From: Alphaproteobacteria bacterium
GTDB taxonomy: Bacteria > Pseudomonadota > Alphaproteobacteria > SMXQ01
Direction of reading: 5' to 3'
DNA length: 46,863 bases
Assembly: GCA_009380075.1 (NCBI GenBank)
Contig: WHSO01000021.1
Span: forward strand, 1 to 46,863
Positions 32,639 through 40,316 of this stretch are shown in pieces. Within the stretch, counting starts at the first letter, position 1. Every line of letters begins with the position of its first letter. Under the pieces are notes generated by a model. That model had not been told where the DNA came from and ran no database searches. It worked only from the letters and a program-made list of their open reading frames with translations. Both the position numbers and the translations under genes were made by a program.

Positions 32639-33937
32639 CTACTTGCAGGAAATCTCCTTGGCATCGCGGCCCTGGTAGACAAGGGTGCAGGCCATGCCGG
32701 TCTTGAGCGCGTCGCGTTTGGCCGTCTGGCCACCGACGCTGACCTTGGTCTTGGAATTGGACACGCTGACGCTGCCCTTGACGTTTGCGCCGTCCTTGCC
32801 CTTGCCCTTGAACGACACCTTGCTGCCGCCCTTGCCGACCTTGCCGAGCTTCACGGAAGCCGTAATGACCGGGATCTTGGCCATCTCGACCTTGCCGGTG
32901 GGCTCTGACGCGGCGCGCAGCGCGGCGACGATGTCGGGCGGGCTGGAATACATTTCCTTCAGCAGCGATGCTATCTCGTCGCCGAAGATCGGATCGATCT
33001 CCATGCGCGCCTTCTTGGCGTCGGCGAGCAGGCCCGGGTCCTTGACCACCTGCTTGAACGCGGCCTGGACGGCCTCGTAGCGTTCCTTGGGCACGCCCGG
33101 TCCCATGACGTAGGGGTAGCCGAATTCGTTGACGCCGAACTTGAGAAACAGGATCTTGCGGGTCTTCTCGTCCTTGGCGAAGTCGAGGGCGAAGGGTACG
33201 TCCTTGAGAAGGCCATCGTTGTTCTTCTTGGCGCCCATCTGGTAGAGCAGGATGAGCTTGCCTTCCTGCACGCGGGTATAATCGCCCGACTTGATCGACG
33301 ACCAGGAATTGGTCGCGCGGCCCATGACCTCGCCGCGCTGCATGGCGAGGTTCACCTCGGAGCCGCCGGGATAGCCCGCGATCATACGGAACTTCATGCC
33401 GAGCAGGCGGGTGAGGATATAGCCGGTGATGACCGAATCGGTGGTCGCCCCGGTGCCGCCGGCGATGAATTCCTTGGTGTAGAGGTCCTTGTAGGACTTG
33501 ACGCCGGATGTGTGCCAGGCGACCCCGAGCGACGTTTCGCGCGCCAGCGAGCCGATCCAGTGCATCTTTAGCGGGTCGAGCTTGGCCTTGGAGTCGCTGC
33601 CGGCGACCAGGGGCTCGATCGGGACGCCGCGTTGCGGCGCGCCGATGATCGTTCCGTCCTGCGCTGCGGCGTTGTAGAGGAAGTTCGCCATGACCAGCGA
33701 GCCGCCGCCGGTCATGTTGCGGGGGATGAAGGTCGGTTTTCCGGGAATGTAGTTGCCGAGATAGCGGGACGTCAGGCGCGCATAGCGGTCGTAACCGCCG
33801 CCGGTGGACAGGCCAATGAGCATCGTCATCCGCTTGCCCGCATAGAAGTCCGAAACGGCGTCGGCGCGGGCATCGGCGGCGATGCCGAGCGCGAATCCGG
33901 CGACCGCCAGGATTCCGATCTTACGGACATGGATCAT
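32639..33937 (-). CDS. TctC/Bug-type periplasmic binding protein, copy 3, with extra C-terminal domain
   Basis: A 432-residue exported protein. The ATG at 33935-33937 follows GGAGG. Signal peptide MIHVRKIGILAVAGFALGIA to about ADARA. Ligand region MTMLIGLSTGGGYDRYARLT and IPGKPTFIPRNMTGGGSL. The Bug core ends near residue 340; after it a spacer rich in Gly and Lys (KVGKGGSKVSFKGKGKDG) leads to a small beta-rich module (VSVSNSKTKVSVGGQTAKRD, LKTGMACTLVYQG, AKEISCK) with two Cys that could pair in the periplasm. The other two copies in the window lack this module. No tctAB nearby. Ligand unknown. Confidence 0.85.
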   Translation of the reverse strand: MIHVRKIGILAVAGFALGIAADARADAVSDFYAGKRMTMLIGLSTGGGYDRYARLTSRYLGNYIPGKPTFIPRNMTGGGSLVMANFLYNAAAQDGTIIGAPQRGVPIEPLVAGSDSKAKLDPLKMHWIGSLARETSLGVAWHTSGVKSYKDLYTKEFIAGGTGATTDSVITGYILTRLLGMKFRMIAGYPGGSEVNLAMQRGEVMGRATNSWSSIKSGDYTRVQEGKLILLYQMGAKKNNDGLLKDVPFALDFAKDEKTRKILFLKFGVNEFGYPYVMGPGVPKERYEAVQAAFKQVVKDPGLLADAKKARMEIDPIFGDEIASLLKEMYSSPPDIVAALRAASEPTGKVEMAKIPVITASVKLGKVGKGGSKVSFKGKGKDGANVKGSVSVSNSKTKVSVGGQTAKRDALKTGMACTLVYQGRDAKEISCK

Positions 33938-34304
33938 GTTCTGCCTCCACTGATGATTATGGTATTCGTCGTTGGCTTTGCGGGCGGCAGGATAGCATTC
34001 CGGCCCTTCCCGCGTAAGTGGAAAGGGCCGGGTGCTTGTTCCGCGAAACCGCGGAAAAAGGCGTTTTCTGGGTGTTTCGGCTTGGCCCTTCTCTCCGGCT
34101 TCCACCGTGCCGGGCTCTCGCACGCCTCGGCAATGCCCCGGTTCCCTCGGACACAGAATGGCCACAGAGCCGTGCGGGAGGACGAGGCTATCATGGCTAA
34201 CAAATCCTTAATGGCGTCCATCGTCGGCGCCCGGCCCGGTGTCCGGGTGCCGACGGCTGTTCGCGCTGAACGGGGACCCAGGCAGTTGGGTTTCGGGGAG
34301 AGGG
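33938..34304. promoter_or_regulatory. Divergent intergenic region with inverted repeats
   Basis: A 367-bp region between the third binding-protein gene and the sigma factor gene. It holds CCGGCCCTT/AAGGGCCGG (34000-34008, 34023-34031) in the likely leader of the binding-protein gene, and TTCCGCG-AAAC-CGCGGAA (34039-34056), which looks like an operator or short hairpin. No convincing gene; a start-like ATG at 34194 opens only a frame that runs against the sigma factor. Confidence 0.4.
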
Positions 34305-34874
34305 ATGCAACCGAAGGCGTCGGCCAACCCGTATCAAAAGACCATAAGTTACGAAGCGGCATTGCTGGAATGCGCTGCCGGACGCAAGGCCGCCGTCGCA
34401 AGAATCTACCGCGGCGAAAAGGAACACCTCCGCGGTGTCGTAAAGCGCATCGTACGCAATCACGACCGTGTCGATGACGTGATCCACGATGCGTTCATCC
34501 AGATCTTGCGGGATTCCCCGAATTTCGATCCATCCCGCGGTTCGGCGCGCGCCTGGATTTACACGATCGTTCGCAACACCGCGCTTAAGAGCTGCCGCAA
34601 GGCGAGCCGCGAAGTTGCCGTCGAAGACGAGCGGCTCGACGCCATGCGCGAGCGCAGGTTTGGGTCCGAAGACGCCGATGACCGGATGGCGGAATACGCC
34701 ACCTTGCGGGCCTGCCTTGAAGCGCTGGAGCCCCAACGGCGCGCGAGCCTGATCCTCGCGATCATCGACGGCCGCACGCATGCCGAGATAGCGCTCTGCC
34801 TCGGTGTTCCGGTCGGCACCGTCAAGTCGTGGATACGCCGCGAACTCGTCGCGCTTCGCGCGCAAATGAAATGA
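34305..34874 (+). CDS. ECF-type RNA polymerase sigma factor
   Basis: A 189-residue sigma-70 family factor of the extracytoplasmic-function class. The ATG at 34305 follows GGGAGAGGG closely; an in-frame GTG lies 22 codons upstream. Region 2: YRGEKEHLRGVVKRIVRNHD, VDDVIHDAFIQIL, FDPSRGSARAWIYTIVRN. Region 4: CLEALEPQRRASLILAIIDG, THAEIALCLGVPVGTVKSWI, the helix-turn-helix that reads the -35. No anti-sigma gene sits next to it, which is unusual. It is 146 bases upstream of, and on the same strand as, the repeat-protein/type I secretion genes, so it may control them (inference). Confidence 0.9.
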   Translation: MQPKASANPYQKTISYEAALLECAAGRKAAVARIYRGEKEHLRGVVKRIVRNHDRVDDVIHDAFIQILRDSPNFDPSRGSARAWIYTIVRNTALKSCRKASREVAVEDERLDAMRERRFGSEDADDRMAEYATLRACLEALEPQRRASLILAIIDGRTHAEIALCLGVPVGTVKSWIRRELVALRAQMK

Positions 34875-35020
34875 TCTCTGAAATGATGCTGTGGGAAAAA
34901 AATTTTCGCGGCCTGCATCCATGATGGTGTGCCAGGGACAGTACTAGGTGACGGCGTGGTGTTGCGATCAGTGCGTATGCCCCCGGCCGTCGGATGCAAC
35001 CCGAACGCAGGAGCCCGGAC

Positions 35021-35635
35021 ATGATCAACATCAAGGACACGCTCAATTTCAAGGACACGATCGACGTCAAGAACTTAGTGGAAGTTTCCGACGTTAAGGT
35101 GACGGTTATCGACAAGGACGGTGGCGGGCCGAAGGATTCCCACGACAGCAAGTATGACGGCAAGGACAAGGACGACGGCCGCGACGGCAAGCACGGCGAC
35201 AAAGACGATTACGACGGCTGGAAGTCCAAGGATTCCTACGACCATGATGGCAAGCATGGTGACAAGGACAAGTACGACGGCCGCGACGGCAAGCACGGTG
35301 ACAAGGACGAGTACGACGGCTGGAAGTCCAAGGATTCCTACGACCACGATGGCAAGCATGGCGACAAGGACGGGTACGATGGCCACGATGGCAAGCACGC
35401 CCGCAAGGACGACGACTACGACAAAGATGGCGGGAAGTGGAAGGACCATGATGACGGCTACGGCAAGCATGGTTACGACGACAACCAGGACTGCGGGGAC
35501 CTCCACGCCGTCCTGGCCGGCATCCATCACGTGCCGTCGCTTCTAGATTATGCCGTGGAGCACCTCGATTCGGGGATGAATTCGTTCGACTCCGCTCCAT
35601 TCGACGTTCCTAACGGCGGTGAAGACATTGTCTGA
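35021..35635 (+). CDS. Asp/Lys/Gly/His-rich tandem-repeat protein, candidate type I secretion cargo
   Basis: A 204-residue protein; GGAG precedes the ATG at 35021. No signal peptide or membrane segment. Residues 1-35 are simple (INIKDTLNFKDTIDVKNLVE), then about residues 40-155 are built of YDG/DGKHGDKD units with a 34-residue period (GRDGKHGDKD.YDGWKSKDSY then DHDGKHGDKD.YD). The DxDG-like spacing suggests cation, perhaps Ca2+, binding (inference). The last 45 residues are non-repetitive (LHAVLAGIHHVPSLLDYAVE) and end GGEDIV; an acidic residue followed by hydrophobic ones at the very end is known in PrtB-like type I substrates. The exporter genes follow on the same strand. I do not recognise a named family. 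Confidence 0.72.
   Translation: MINIKDTLNFKDTIDVKNLVEVSDVKVTVIDKDGGGPKDSHDSKYDGKDKDDGRDGKHGDKDDYDGWKSKDSYDHDGKHGDKDKYDGRDGKHGDKDEYDGWKSKDSYDHDGKHGDKDGYDGHDGKHARKDDDYDKDGGKWKDHDDGYGKHGYDDNQDCGDLHAVLAGIHHVPSLLDYAVEHLDSGMNSFDSAPFDVPNGGEDIV
35177..35398 (+). repeat. 102-bp tandem repeat inside the repeat-protein gene
   Basis: Copies start at 35177 and 35279, with a partial third from 35381. Each encodes 34 residues and differs mostly at third positions and at one Asp/Glu and one Lys/Gly site. GC is lower here than in flanking genes. Confidence 0.8.
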
Positions 35636-35645
35636 TGGCGACATC

Positions 35646-35679
35646 GTTCCGGCGGCATGCGATCCAATGCCGCCGGAAC
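35646..35679 (+). terminator. 13-bp perfect hairpin between cargo and exporter genes
   Basis: GTTCCGGCGGCAT (35646-35658) pairs with ATGCCGCCGGAAC (35667-35679), loop of 8, beginning 11 bases after the repeat-protein stop. A TTTTT run comes only 20 bases later, so it may be a partial terminator or an mRNA-protecting stem that lets the first gene be expressed more than the exporter genes. Confidence 0.6.
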
Positions 35680-35721
35680 CCGGCGTCGGAACCCGGCAAT
35701 TTTTCAAGGGAGGGTTGCACC

Positions 35722-37029
35722 ATGATCGACATGAACGGAAAGGATTCACCTGATCCGGCCACCGGCATGGGACGATCCTCAGGCCCTGACTCAGGCCCTG
35801 AATCAGGCCCCGAGTCAGGCATGCGCCCGCCGGAAAAACCGCGCGGGTTTCTCAGTTTCCTGACCTGGCCGTTCCTTCTCGCCCAGTTGGCCGCGCTCGA
35901 CCATGCACTCGGCGGATTGATACGCCCGGCGGCAGCGGTGGAAAGCGCCGATACCGACCAGGCGCCGGCCTCGGCAGGGGATGCGGGCAGCGGCGAACTT
36001 TCCGATCGTGAGTATCCGGCAATGCAAATGACTGCTGCAGAGGAGCCACGACCTGAAAGCAGGGATTCCGAAGGCGCAGACCCGACCGATGCCGGTTTTG
36101 GCGGCGATTCTCACGTGGGCGTTCCCGAGACGCCCATCGCCGACGACCACGTGCTTTCAGGTGTTGGCTTGACCGGTGCGATCGTCGTTAACGGCGGAAG
36201 CTCCGGGGGCGGCGGGGGCCCGTTAGGTGCCCATATGACGCCCAATGCACAAATACCCGCCGCTGGTGCGTCGGATGGTTCCGGCACGTGGAGCATTCCG
36301 GATGTTTGGGATTCCATGGGTTGGAGTCAGCCCGACGGGATTGGTGGTCTGTCGGACTTCGGCGAGGTTCTTCCCGGCGTCGGGACAACGGTGGGCAACG
36401 TAACAGGCATTGCCGGCGAAGTCCTACAAACCGCGGAGCCAGTCGTTGATTCCGTGCTGCCGACGCTGGCCGCCGCGACGAATGCCGTGACGGGTGTCGT
36501 GGGCGGTGCCCTGGAGGCCACGGAGGTGGTTGTCGAATCCGTGCCGGCAACGTTGGACGCCGCGACAGACGCCGTGACGGGTGTCGTGGGTGGCACACTC
36601 AAGGTCACGGAGCCCGTCCTTGATTCCGCGCTGTCGACACTGAACGCCATAACGGATGCCGCGACCGGTGGAGGCGGATTCCTCGGCTCCGGCGGAAGCC
36701 TCGCCTTCGAAGCCCAACCTTCACCGGCGAGCGGCACGGACGATCTCTTTTCCGGAGGCCGTTACACCGACTACGGCCTGGCGATGCGGACGGATGGCAC
36801 CGACACCGCCGCGGGTGGCGTCGATCCTGATCGCGACCCCGTGGACGCGGAAGGAAGCGCTCCTCAGGACGGAGATCGCGGCGGTGCGGAGGCGAGCGGG
36901 GACGATGCCACGGATCAAGGGGAGCATGATTCCAACGATCTCCTTCATGCCGCCCCGGCGCCGGTGTTCGCGGAGCTCGCGAGTGCCCTCGACGATGCCG
37001 CTCTTCGGGGCGGCGACAGCCTGCTCTAG
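35722..37029 (+). CDS. Acidic repeat protein of unknown family, upstream of the type I exporter
   Basis: A 435-residue protein; GGGAGG precedes the ATG at 35722. N-terminal SGPDSGPESGPESG comes from a 12-bp repeat. Residues about 50-75 (FLSFLTWPFLLAQLAALDHA) are hydrophobic but not a classical signal. A Gly- and Asp-rich middle follows, then three 29-residue repeats at residues 235-319 (AEPVVDSVLPTLAAATNAVTG; ATEVVVESVPATLDAATDAV; VTEPVLDSALSTLNAITDAA), probably helical or coiled. The rest is strongly acidic and ends DDAALRGGDSLL. It lies 12 bases before the ATPase gene. It may be a second cargo or an exporter accessory protein; no family is recognised. Confidence 0.7.
   Translation: MIDMNGKDSPDPATGMGRSSGPDSGPESGPESGMRPPEKPRGFLSFLTWPFLLAQLAALDHALGGLIRPAAAVESADTDQAPASAGDAGSGELSDREYPAMQMTAAEEPRPESRDSEGADPTDAGFGGDSHVGVPETPIADDHVLSGVGLTGAIVVNGGSSGGGGGPLGAHMTPNAQIPAAGASDGSGTWSIPDVWDSMGWSQPDGIGGLSDFGEVLPGVGTTVGNVTGIAGEVLQTAEPVVDSVLPTLAAATNAVTGVVGGALEATEVVVESVPATLDAATDAVTGVVGGTLKVTEPVLDSALSTLNAITDAATGGGGFLGSGGSLAFEAQPSPASGTDDLFSGGRYTDYGLAMRTDGTDTAAGGVDPDRDPVDAEGSAPQDGDRGGAEASGDDATDQGEHDSNDLLHAAPAPVFAELASALDDAALRGGDSLL
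35779..35820 (+). repeat. 12-bp minisatellite, about 3.5 copies
   Basis: Units of TCAGGCCCTGAC type at 35779, 35791 and 35803 and a partial one at 35815, encoding Ser-Gly-Pro-Asp/Glu. A candidate site for copy-number change between strains. Confidence 0.85.
36424..36678 (+). repeat. 87-bp repeats coding for three 29-residue units
   Basis: Units at 36424-36510, 36511-36597 and 36598-36678 (last one 6 bases short). The first two share VTGVVGG at the end of the unit; the third ends ATGGGG. Confidence 0.8.
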
Positions 37030-37041
37030 AGAGGGGGCGAA

Positions 37042-38949
37042 ATGTCGTCCAGTGCATCGTCGCCTCGTGCCATCCATCAAGCCCTGGCGCCGGCTGTTGC
37101 CGCCGGTGTCGATACGGCGCGCCGATGGGCCCGGCAACTTGCCGCGCGCGTAGCGGGAGACCACCCGTCCGATCCGGTCGTTTCCGAACCCGGTGATCCT
37201 TCCGTATCGGTACCGCTGAATGCCTGGCGGGCCGCTGCCCGTCGCACCATGACGATCGTGGTTCTGTTTTCGGTGGTCGTGAACCTCCTGATGCTGACGC
37301 TGCCGATCTACCTGTTTCAGATATCCGACAGGGTCCTGACCAGCCGCAGTCTTGAGACGCTGGTGATGCTCACGGTACTGGCGCTCTGCTTCCTGGGTAT
37401 CCTCTCGATCCTCGACGTTCTCCGCCGGCAGATTCTCGGACGGCTTGCGGCAAAGCTGGAAGTGATGCTCGGCGGTCCCGTCCTGACCAGCATGATCAAC
37501 AGCGCGCGCGGTGGCGAAGGCGGCAACGTCCAGGCGCTGCGCAGCCTTCAACAGGTGCGCAATTTTATCCTGAGTCCCGTCATGCTCCTCCTCATCGACG
37601 TTCCGCTGACGCCGCTCTATCTTGGGGTCATATTCCTGATTCATGTCGATCTCGGCTTCATCGCCCTGGCCGCCGCCGTGCTGCTGTTCTCGATTGCGGT
37701 GCTCAATCAAAGGGCGACCGCCGGGTCGCTCAGCCGGGCGCACGCACATGCCGCTCGGGCGGATGCCGCTGCGGAATCGCTCGGCCGCAACGCGCAGGTT
37801 ATCAATGCGATGGGGATGCTGAAGGAAAGCATCCTTCATTGGGGCCGGCAGCAGGCACAATCGCTGACCGTTCAGAGTACCGCCCTGGATCGCAACTTCT
37901 GGATTACCGGGCTGTCGAAGTTCGTCCGCTACGTCACCCAGATCATCGTCCTCGGCTGCGGCGCCTATCTCGCGCTTCAGGGCGAGTTGACCGGTGGCAT
38001 GATGATCGCCGCCGCCATTATCGTCGGTCGCGCCCTTCAGCCGCTGGAAGGGCTGATCGAAGGCTGGCGCAGCTTCGTCCAGACGCGGGCCGCCTATGGG
38101 CGCGTCTGCAGCGCTGTCGAGATTCTGCGAAACGAACCGCGGAAGCTCCGCCTGCCGCGACCGAAGGGGCACCTTTCGGTCGAGCGCGTACTGTACCTTC
38201 CACCCGGTTCGAAGGAGCCCATTCTCAACGGTGTGGGCTTCATGATCGGGCCGGGCGAATCGCTCGCCATCGTGGGCCCCTCGGGCTCGGGCAAGTCGAC
38301 TCTCGCCCGGATCCTCGTGGGATGCATCGTGCCGACCGCGGGAAAGGTGCGCCTGGACGGCACGGAGCTCCGCAACTGGGACCGGCGCCAGTTCGGTGAA
38401 TACTCCGGGTACCTGCCCCAGGAAGTGGAGCTTTTTCCCGGCACAATCAGGCAGAACGTTTGCCGCATGCGCGACGACCTGCCCGATTCCAGCATCTACG
38501 AAGCGGCAGTGCTTACCGGAATTCACGACATGGTGTGCCAGTTGCCGAACGGGTATGAAACGATACTCGAACGTGGCGGGGCGCCCCTGTCGGGCGGGCA
38601 GAAGCAGCGCCTCGCGCTTGCGCGCGCCTTTTTCGGCAATCCCTCCCTCGTGGTGCTGGATGAGCCGAACTCCAATCTCGATGCCGCCGGGGAACAGGCT
38701 CTTACCGAGACACTCCAGCGTGCGAAGAAGCGGGGCGTAACAGTGGTCGTCGTGACCTTGAGGCCGGCGCTGCTGAACAACGTGGACAAGGTTCTGATCT
38801 TGCGCTCCGGTCGGATGGAGGCTTTCGGCCCGCCGGACGATGTGCTGCACCGCTTCGTGCGTGCCGGCGGCGAGAGGCCGCGTCCAGCGCGCGGGGAGGA
38901 GAGGGGCAGCGCAGATCATGCGTCGCACCCAACAAGGGCTGCAGAATGA
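37042..38949 (+). CDS. Type I secretion system permease/ATPase (PrtD-like)
   Basis: A 635-residue inner-membrane ABC exporter half-transporter; GAGGGGG precedes the ATG. After about 65 polar residues come the membrane domain (about 68-345) and the nucleotide-binding domain: Walker A GPSGSGKST at 412-420, Q-loop in YLPQEVELFPGTIRQN, signature LSGGQKQR at 516-523, Walker B LVVLDEPNSNLD with Glu541. The H-loop, normally a His-Arg-Pro here, reads TLRPALL with Leu573 in place of His. No N-terminal C39-like domain, so cargo is not expected to be trimmed by it. Its stop overlaps the membrane-fusion gene start (ATGA). It drives export of an unfolded cargo, likely one of the two proteins upstream. Confidence 0.92.
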   Translation: MSSSASSPRAIHQALAPAVAAGVDTARRWARQLAARVAGDHPSDPVVSEPGDPSVSVPLNAWRAAARRTMTIVVLFSVVVNLLMLTLPIYLFQISDRVLTSRSLETLVMLTVLALCFLGILSILDVLRRQILGRLAAKLEVMLGGPVLTSMINSARGGEGGNVQALRSLQQVRNFILSPVMLLLIDVPLTPLYLGVIFLIHVDLGFIALAAAVLLFSIAVLNQRATAGSLSRAHAHAARADAAAESLGRNAQVINAMGMLKESILHWGRQQAQSLTVQSTALDRNFWITGLSKFVRYVTQIIVLGCGAYLALQGELTGGMMIAAAIIVGRALQPLEGLIEGWRSFVQTRAAYGRVCSAVEILRNEPRKLRLPRPKGHLSVERVLYLPPGSKEPILNGVGFMIGPGESLAIVGPSGSGKSTLARILVGCIVPTAGKVRLDGTELRNWDRRQFGEYSGYLPQEVELFPGTIRQNVCRMRDDLPDSSIYEAAVLTGIHDMVCQLPNGYETILERGGAPLSGGQKQRLALARAFFGNPSLVVLDEPNSNLDAAGEQALTETLQRAKKRGVTVVVVTLRPALLNNVDKVLILRSGRMEAFGPPDDVLHRFVRAGGERPRPARGEERGSADHASHPTRAAE

Positions 38950-40316
38950 TGGCTGACCAGAGAGATGGATCGTGGCATCTCGGTGTGCCATTGAGCGCAA
39001 AGTGGCCGGTGATCGTCGGCTTGGCCATTCTCTTCGTCTGGGGTGGTGGTTTCGGGGTCTGGGCGGCGCTGGCTCCCTTGCACGGCGCGGTGGTCGCGCC
39101 GGGCACCTTCGTCGCCACGGGCCAGAACAAGCTCGTCCAGCATCTCGAGGGCGGCATCGTGCGCGAGATATTGGTGAGGGAGGGCGACCTGGTCGCCGCG
39201 GGACAGACGCTCGTACGCATGGACGAAACTTCGGCCCGGGCGAAGCTACGGCGACTCGTCCTCAAGAACTACCGCCTTGCGGCCATGAAGGCCCGGCTCG
39301 AAACCGAGATGGAGGGGCGGGACGAAATGGAAATCCCGCCCACGCTCGCGGCAAGGCAGGACGATCCGGAGGTCCGTGCCATCATCGCGCGACATCGCTC
39401 CGAACTGCGGGCCCGGAGGACGAGCCTTGCCACGGAGGAACTGGTCCTGGACAAGGAAATCGCCGGGATCAGGGAGAGCATTCAGGGCTATGAAGCCCAG
39501 GTCCGCTCCACGAAACAGCGCATCGCGATGTTCGCCGAGGAGCTGAAGGACAAGTCGGCGCTGCTCAAGAAACACCTGACCCGCAAGACGGAGGTTCTCG
39601 ATCTGCAGCGCGCCGAGGCGGGCCTGGTGGGCAATCTGGGTGAGCTGGTCGGCCGGATCGCGGATTCCCACCAGCGCATTGCACGGGCCAACCAGCACAT
39701 CGCGCATCTCAGGTCCGAGGCCGTGAGGGCGGCGATCGAGGAGTTGAGGCAGGTCGAGGCGGAGATCGACGACGTCCAGGAGCAGATTCATGCCGCGCAG
39801 GACGTGGTTGACCGTGCCGAGGTCCAGGCACCGACGCGGGGAATTGTCGTCCGGCTCCACTACCACACGCCTGGCGCCGTGGTCGCTCCAGGGGGGATGA
39901 TCGTGGAACTCCTGCCCGTGAACGATGAACTGATCATCGAGGCCCAGGTCAAGCCGAGCGACGTCACCCATGTCGCCATCGGGCAGGAGGCGTTGGTCCG
40001 GCTGTCGGCGCTCAACCGCCGCGTCACCCCGACGATTGCGGCAAACGTGATCTACCTGTCGGCCGACGCTCTGAGGGAACAGATGCCATCGATGGAACGC
40101 GGCGCAGGGTCGGCACGGGGGATGGGGACGCGGCAGGACTATTACGTCGTGCGCGTCCGGCTCGACGAAGCGGACGTGCTCGAACGCCTGGAGGCGTTCC
40201 AACCCACCCCCGGCATGCCCGCCGAGGTTTACATCAAGACGGGCGAACGGACTTTCTTCGAGTACGTCATGCGGCCGGTGTTCGACAGCTTCTCCCACGC
40301 CTTCCGCGAAAGCTGA
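38946..40316 (+). CDS. HlyD-family membrane fusion protein of type I secretion system
   Basis: A 456-residue periplasmic adaptor. One membrane helix at about residues 18-40 (WPVIVGLAILFVWGGGFGVW), a biotinyl-lipoyl-like start (VVAPGTFVATGQNKLVQHLE, then GGIVREILVREGDLVAAGQT), a long alpha-helical hairpin of about 180 residues rich in Glu, Arg and Leu, and the second lipoyl half (VQAPTRGIVVRLHYHTPGAV) followed by a beta-barrel region (ELLPVNDELIIEAQVKPSDV) and the typical ending PAEVYIKTGERTFFEYVMRP. It links the ATPase to a TolC-like outer-membrane channel; no tolC gene is in the window. Translation is coupled to the ATPase gene. Confidence 0.93.
   Translation: MMADQRDGSWHLGVPLSAKWPVIVGLAILFVWGGGFGVWAALAPLHGAVVAPGTFVATGQNKLVQHLEGGIVREILVREGDLVAAGQTLVRMDETSARAKLRRLVLKNYRLAAMKARLETEMEGRDEMEIPPTLAARQDDPEVRAIIARHRSELRARRTSLATEELVLDKEIAGIRESIQGYEAQVRSTKQRIAMFAEELKDKSALLKKHLTRKTEVLDLQRAEAGLVGNLGELVGRIADSHQRIARANQHIAHLRSEAVRAAIEELRQVEAEIDDVQEQIHAAQDVVDRAEVQAPTRGIVVRLHYHTPGAVVAPGGMIVELLPVNDELIIEAQVKPSDVTHVAIGQEALVRLSALNRRVTPTIAANVIYLSADALREQMPSMERGAGSARGMGTRQDYYVVRVRLDEADVLERLEAFQPTPGMPAEVYIKTGERTFFEYVMRPVFDSFSHAFRES

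Follow-up and report, generated by a model that had tools for sequence, protein, structure and literature searches.

A PrtD-type secretion operon with two candidate non-RTX cargo proteins and a lone sigma factor gene in Alphaproteobacteria

Which proteins pass through a type I exporter whose neighboring genes encode none of the familiar repeats-in-toxin (RTX) cargos, and what controls their export? The question was raised by a locus at positions 34305 to 40316 (+) of contig WHSO01000021.1 (assembly GCA_009380075.1, Alphaproteobacteria bacterium), a stretch of 46,863 nucleotides that is called the window below. The five same-strand genes listed in an initial annotation were all present: an extracytoplasmic function (ECF) sigma factor gene, two open reading frames (ORF2 and ORF3) encoding repeat proteins, and the genes of a PrtD-type ATP-binding cassette (ABC) exporter and an HlyD adaptor. 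Judged from sequence comparison, the locus most likely serves the type I secretion of two non-RTX cargos as a dedicated operon with its own sigma factor.

Exporter identity and linkage to the repeat protein genes

In an NCBIfam search, the ABC protein scored 688 bits against TIGR01842 (PrtD; cut-off, 510), and the product of the adjoining gene scored 374 bits against the adaptor family TIGR01843 (HlyD; cut-off, 209). The solved structure nearest to the ABC protein was Aquifex PrtD, 5L22 (E = 2.7e-133). The locus had been described as self-contained, but no TolC gene was found in the operon, and four OEP-family matches were located instead on other contigs of the same genome (C87, C91, and C97). 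A TolC-type channel is available in the genome. The exporter falls within the PrtD subfamily and, taken by itself, is of a familiar type.

A scan with the window ABC protein recovered 80 loci in two identity blocks: class A exporters, 65 to 77% identical to it (Bradyrhizobium, Hyphomicrobium, and kin), and class B exporters, about 52 to 57% identical (Bosea, Nitrobacter, Afipia, Methylobacterium, and Microvirga). In all 73 loci with enough upstream sequence, an ORF3-type gene of class A or B lay immediately upstream of the ABC gene. The two ORF3 classes tracked the exporter tree, class B forming its own clade on the ABC tree, and in Sinorhizobium and Rhizobium the class B ORF3 gene adjoined an AprD-like exporter. 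Class A ORF3 proteins were marked by an N-terminal RGxWSFLTWSFFLAQ and a C-terminal YTDYG motif, and class B proteins, of about 640 residues, by repeated GDYYxxNxIxQxN motifs. The protein of locus L039 bore both motif sets and matched the class B profile at E = 9e-20 while standing outside that profile; because it matches both, the two classes probably form one superfamily. When profiles of the class A C-termini were compared directly with class B, no significant similarity emerged. Ten representatives, covering both classes and both the ORF2 and ORF3 slots, had no accepted match in Pfam or NCBIfam.

Searches were also started from ORF3 in place of the exporter. With the class A N-terminal profile, each of 22 carrier genomes proved to hold a single copy; in a sample of 385 Alphaproteobacteria, the same profile matched its own copy and, weakly, one other sequence (E = 0.005). 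In the same sample, the class B profile had a single match, which adjoined its exporter, and the plasmid-borne class B matches that were read out were likewise beside an exporter. Single-protein searches with ORF2 and ORF3 in 96 relatives yielded chance matches only. Homologs of the repeat proteins without any type I exporter, which the initial annotation had named as the case that would contradict it, were sought, and none was found. A complete operon was carried by p195_1, a conjugative plasmid of Bradyrhizobium sp. 195, in the record of which both proteins are labeled hypothetical. Two exporters in genomes of the window organism's own family (43% and 40% identical) were rejected as the same system, since the two acidic neighbor genes were not seen beside them.

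ORF2 and ORF3 as cargo candidates

ORF2 and ORF3 are both acidic repeat proteins. In ORF2 (pI 4.75; 25% Asp, 14% Lys, 14% Gly, and 7% His), a tandem repeat of 102 nt (34 aa) was present in 2.7 copies, and in ORF3 (pI 4.05), one of 87 nt (29 aa) was present in 2.5 copies. The corresponding periods gave the highest autocorrelation in each protein (0.335 versus 0.19 in shuffles for period 34; 0.166 versus 0.12 for period 29), in agreement with the repeat lengths first reported. The reported lack of RTX nonapeptides (GGxGxD / GGxGxDxUx) was likewise borne out for both proteins, and neither had a Pfam or NCBIfam family match above chance.

The body of ORF2 was unconserved, and conservation was concentrated in its last approximately 45 residues (DLHAVLAGI..LLDYAVEHLDS..FD..FDVP). 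Profiles of this region (A2 and A6) matched ORF2 itself at E values of 1e-19 to 1e-20; their other matches were confined to ORF2-type genes next to the operon and to the tail of a nearby ABC gene. The matched proteins included Bradyrhizobium ORF2-slot proteins, a 95-aa protein in L025, and Hyphomicrobium proteins in L028/L178 and L038/L174; all were encoded near exporter genes, and their bodies were otherwise unrelated and of low complexity. In the sampled Alphaproteobacteria, the profile matched its own copy only. Because the module is constant, is carried on unrelated bodies, and is always found near one exporter clade, we read it as a candidate export signal; this is the pattern that would be expected of a C-terminal one.

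Several further observations concern the ORF2 slot. In the Bradyrhizobium-type locus L172, a gene for a peptidase-C39, bacteriocin-type ABC exporter lies beside the operon (L172:1301-3796, minus strand), and its tail duplicates a portion of ORF2 (DCDPKPSDDCGKGDSYRNPGEALAKFDFSH), which looks like a fusion of ORF2 sequence to this gene; a second, weaker ORF2 match was found in the same region of genome G096 (contig C77, 29455-29511). Hyphomicrobium-type slots held very varied Gly/Asp/Ser-rich low-complexity proteins of up to approximately 1,550 aa (L036:5212-6354, L039:870-5537, and L026:683-2728). The class B slot proteins of L041 (4538-5449) and L050 (4669-5580) were Gln/Asn rich, with LQGQ and DNK repeats, and shared a C-terminal region, NQTITxGANIQFNS, that recalls amyloid-type repeats.

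ORF3 ranged from 411 to 1,548 aa across loci. The 29-aa period was strongest in the window protein, in four Bradyrhizobium loci, and in L040, the latter five proteins being 835 to 1,548 aa long. AlphaFold modeled the window ORF3 with low confidence (mean predicted local distance difference test [pLDDT] score, 46) except for a helix at residues 43 to 66; further helices, in the repeats and at the C-terminus, were predicted at residues 227 to 315 and 416 to 434. A period of 29 residues corresponds to about eight turns of an alpha-helix and would fit amphipathic helices. Class B ORF3 was predicted to be a beta-repeat protein (pLDDT mostly 80 to 95 in residues 250 to 595), for which a Foldseek search of the PDB returned nothing significant, FapC and CsgA appearing at E values of 0.4 to 1.0. 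In a comparison with functional amyloids (curli and Fap), predicted strand repeats were a property of class B ORF3, whereas the window ORF3 was predicted to be helical or disordered.

Features of the operon in the window
Feature	Position	Strand	Remarks
ECF sigma factor gene	34305..34874	+	189 aa; Sigma70_r2/r4_2; upstream in-frame GTG at 34239
Candidate sigma-dependent promoter of ORF2	34914..34944	+	TGCATCC-N16-GACAGTAC; putative function
ORF2, small-cargo candidate	35021..35635	+	204 aa, Asp/Lys/Gly/His rich; 34-aa repeats at 35140-35412
ORF2 C-terminal conserved module, candidate secretion signal	35495..35632	+	DLHAVLA...LLDYAVEHL...FDVP; A2/A6 profiles
Strong hairpin in ORF2-ORF3 gap	35644..35680	+	Possible attenuator or mRNA stabilizer
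ORF3, large-cargo candidate	35722..37029	+	435 aa, acidic; alignments A1, A3, A4
ORF3 N-terminal hydrophobic helix	35830-35949	+	Alignments and AlphaFold
ORF3 29-aa helical repeats	36434-36648	+	Tandem repeats and AlphaFold
ORF3 C-terminus		+	Motif GGRYTDYGLAM; tail ends GGDSLL
PrtD-type ABC exporter	37042..38949	+	635 aa; no C39 or CLD domain; TIGR01842
HlyD-family periplasmic adaptor	38946..40316	+	456 aa; TIGR01843

The start of the sigma factor gene is probably the one listed, which is preceded by GGGGAGAGGG. For ORF2, the listed start (ribosome-binding site, AGGAG) is most likely, rather than 34994, and for ORF3 the listed start (ribosome-binding site, GGGAGGG) is most likely, rather than 35635. 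The operon is flanked by a gene for a TctC-like solute-binding protein with a normal Sec signal (window 32639-34165, minus strand), and a similar gene lies near a distant exporter in a genome of the same genus (L127:9306-10574).

The sigma factor gene and its candidate promoter

Pfam identified Sigma70_r2 (6.5e-17) and r4_2 (6.9e-13) and no other domains in the sigma factor, homologs of which, 56 to 59% identical, start the same operon in 11 other loci. All 12 sigma-containing operons fell into one exporter clade on the ABC tree (ultrafast bootstrap, 96; approximate likelihood-ratio test, 87), and class B loci yielded no comparable ECF sigma factor. No anti-sigma gene adjoined the sigma gene in the window, L016, L025, or L130; many ECF groups lack an adjacent anti-sigma gene, so its absence does not exclude an ECF sigma factor.

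The sequence TGCATCC-N16-GACA was found between the sigma gene and ORF2 in seven aligned loci, where its flanks diverged, and it stood just before ORF2, with exact spacing, in every informative sigma-containing operon. It was also in place in five loci outside the defining set (L130, L172, L175, L176, and L177), namely four contigs completing L015, L019, L021, and L030, together with plasmid p195_1. Furthermore, a second exact copy in L025 preceded the gene for the 95-aa ORF2-like protein, which the motif had predicted. None of the 74 fetched loci without a detected sigma gene contained the motif with its 16-base spacer, although L015, L019, L021, and L030 among them end before the sigma gene. 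The chance of finding the motif in a 150-base gap is about 3e-5. Genome-wide (3.54 Mb, 65% GC), one copy was found versus 1.4 expected, and most additional matches in relatives look like chance; this count alone is not significant, and the weight lies on the position and conservation of the motif. ECF sigma factors require strict promoter elements and spacers (PMC6411747), and the two-block, fixed-spacer motif is a candidate promoter of the sigma factor. The sigma control proposed in the initial annotation has in this way gained a conserved candidate promoter before ORF2, while recognition by the sigma factor is something that we infer.

In six class A operons without the ECF sigma gene (L022, L026, L031, L036, L174, and L178), a LuxR/GerE regulator gene was found alongside; an ECF sigma factor and a LuxR-type regulator thus seem to have been swapped for one another in governing the operon. 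The gap between ORF2 and ORF3 was predicted to fold strongly (-41 kcal/mol; z = -2.9). The hairpin was strong in L016, L020, and L025, weak in L018 and L024, and absent from L023, and terminator-like matches of a hairpin plus T residues occurred at the chance level.

Interpretation, alternatives, and known systems

The reading that we favor with some confidence is that of a sigma-driven secretion operon exporting ORF2 and ORF3 as a hydrated, charged surface coat or matrix. The lone ECF sigma factor would direct transcription of ORF2 from TGCATCC-N16-GACA, with read-through into ORF3 and the exporter genes, and the hairpin 3' of ORF2 would temper this read-through, leaving the small protein in the greatest abundance. 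Together with a TolC protein encoded elsewhere, the PrtD-HlyD pump would thread the two unfolded, acidic, non-RTX proteins outward, ORF2 by way of its conserved C-terminal module and ORF3 by way of its C-terminal helix. In Aquifex PrtD, unfolded cargo passes through a narrow channel, the entrance of which is a basic bowl (PMC8277102); such a channel would suit acidic, disordered cargo. Outside the cell, ORF2 would be a disordered polyampholyte in the coat or matrix, and ORF3 a long amphipathic-helix protein whose length would be set by the number of its 29-aa repeats. The originally proposed pairing of a dedicated exporter with non-RTX cargo has been strengthened by cross-genus linkage, co-inheritance, and the ORF2 module; secretion itself we still infer.

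Several points weigh against this reading. The FxT motif of PrtD exporters, at ABC residues 175 to 177 (window 37564-37572), was F-x-S/A/L in class A exporters, in which the threonine is replaced, and F-x-T in the class B rows read. RTX cargo typically ends in [FLI][VAI] (PMC8861453); ORF2 ends in EDIV, the last two residues of which fit, and ORF3 ends in LL. The argument that had been drawn from EDIV is weak, as ORF2 relatives end in other residues and the EDIV ending is private to the window ORF2. The conserved hydrophobic N-terminal helix of ORF3, followed by AAA in the window protein and by AxA in most relatives, is unusual for a type I cargo. The earlier statement that neither protein has a cleavable signal stands for ORF2, which has no hydrophobic N-terminus, but is insecure for ORF3, which may be Sec targeted. 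The coat role, suggested solely by composition and repeat-length variation, is the weakest step.

The helix and the AxA after it give rise to the main rival explanation, in which ORF2 is the sole cargo and ORF3 is a dedicated exporter accessory that guides or holds back ORF2, being either Sec targeted or tethered to the inner membrane through its helix. The helix is the best conserved and most confidently predicted part of ORF3, and ORF3 is the invariant neighbor of the ABC gene, whereas the ORF2 bodies differ. An almost four-fold length range set by repeat number is, however, typical of exported structural proteins and not of machinery. Moreover, the helix is weakly hydrophobic for a Sec signal (KD15, about 1.1 to 1.8 in most proteins versus 2.4 in the neighboring TctC-like protein), about 30 or more residues precede it, and class B relatives lack the helix-AxA arrangement. 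An accessory role for ORF3 appears rather unlikely.

Still less probable is a metal- or calcium-binding system, in which an Asp/His-rich ORF2 would sequester extracellular metal as a non-RTX analog of calcium-folded cargo. The Asp and His contents of ORF2 and the GRGKEHHGKKDDDD repeats of a Hyphomicrobium ORF2 favor it, but other Hyphomicrobium and the Bradyrhizobium slot proteins are less His rich or lack His repeats, and with His content varying in this way, the composition does not amount to a set of conserved ligands. The genes immediately flanking the window operon include none for metal handling, and the metal-binding use first suggested found no sequence evidence. Low-complexity hydrophilic proteins are often intracellular protectants, and the repeat proteins could be stress-protective disordered proteins of this kind with an incidental exporter linkage; strict linkage and co-inheritance over 73 loci in several families, together with the C-terminal module common to ORF2-type proteins, make this highly improbable.

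Under the favored interpretation of exported coat proteins, recurrence of the ORF2/ORF3 operon in Bradyrhizobium and Hyphomicrobium points to a class of exported surface proteins that has yet to be described. The literature searched contained no account of the operon or of its cargo families, the C-terminal module of ORF2, the pairing of sigma factor and promoter, or their spread. It is an even call whether ORF2 and ORF3 represent the first described two-component non-RTX type I cargo class assembling an extracellular coat, one that has spread through Hyphomicrobiales and related groups, in some cases on conjugative plasmids, and whose regulators can be exchanged (an ECF sigma factor in one clade and LuxR-type regulators in others).

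Among known systems, PrtDEF/AprDEF (Aquifex PrtD, 5L22) resembles the locus in its TIGR01842 ABC protein without a CLD, its TIGR01843 adaptor, and its upstream cargo-type genes, but the window locus lacks RTX cargo and a TolC gene, and its class has lost the FxT threonine. CLD-less PrtD/HasD exporters do carry non-RTX cargo, such as HasA, which is RTX free and uncleaved (PMC8277102). ORF2 and ORF3, with no Pfam match, resemble HasA in neither sequence nor composition, and the lone ECF sigma gene without an adjoining anti-sigma gene also sets the window apart from HasDE-HasA. The same genome encodes a second type I system (L129, on contig C86 of G000), probably of the LapBCE/BTLCP type, which shares export of a large repeat protein; its ABC protein is only 31% identical to that of the window, and the ABC gene is grouped with a giant adhesin-like gene and one that probably encodes a BTLCP protease. 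ToaDE and TobDE of Rhizobium leguminosarum, also of the Hyphomicrobiales, are orphan AprD-like exporters and possible counterparts of the class B exporters, in the loci of which the ECF sigma gene was not found. Orphan PrtD/AprD-type exporters are a recognized puzzle in rhizobia, and a systematic mutant study found nothing that ToaDE and TobDE export (PMC2275737). The linked, unnamed families provide concrete cargo candidates for such exporters, with the sigma-promoter pair as a possible switch and the short C-terminal module as a testable export signal, and, if the reading is true, the orphan rhizobial exporters would find their missing cargo in the class B branch.

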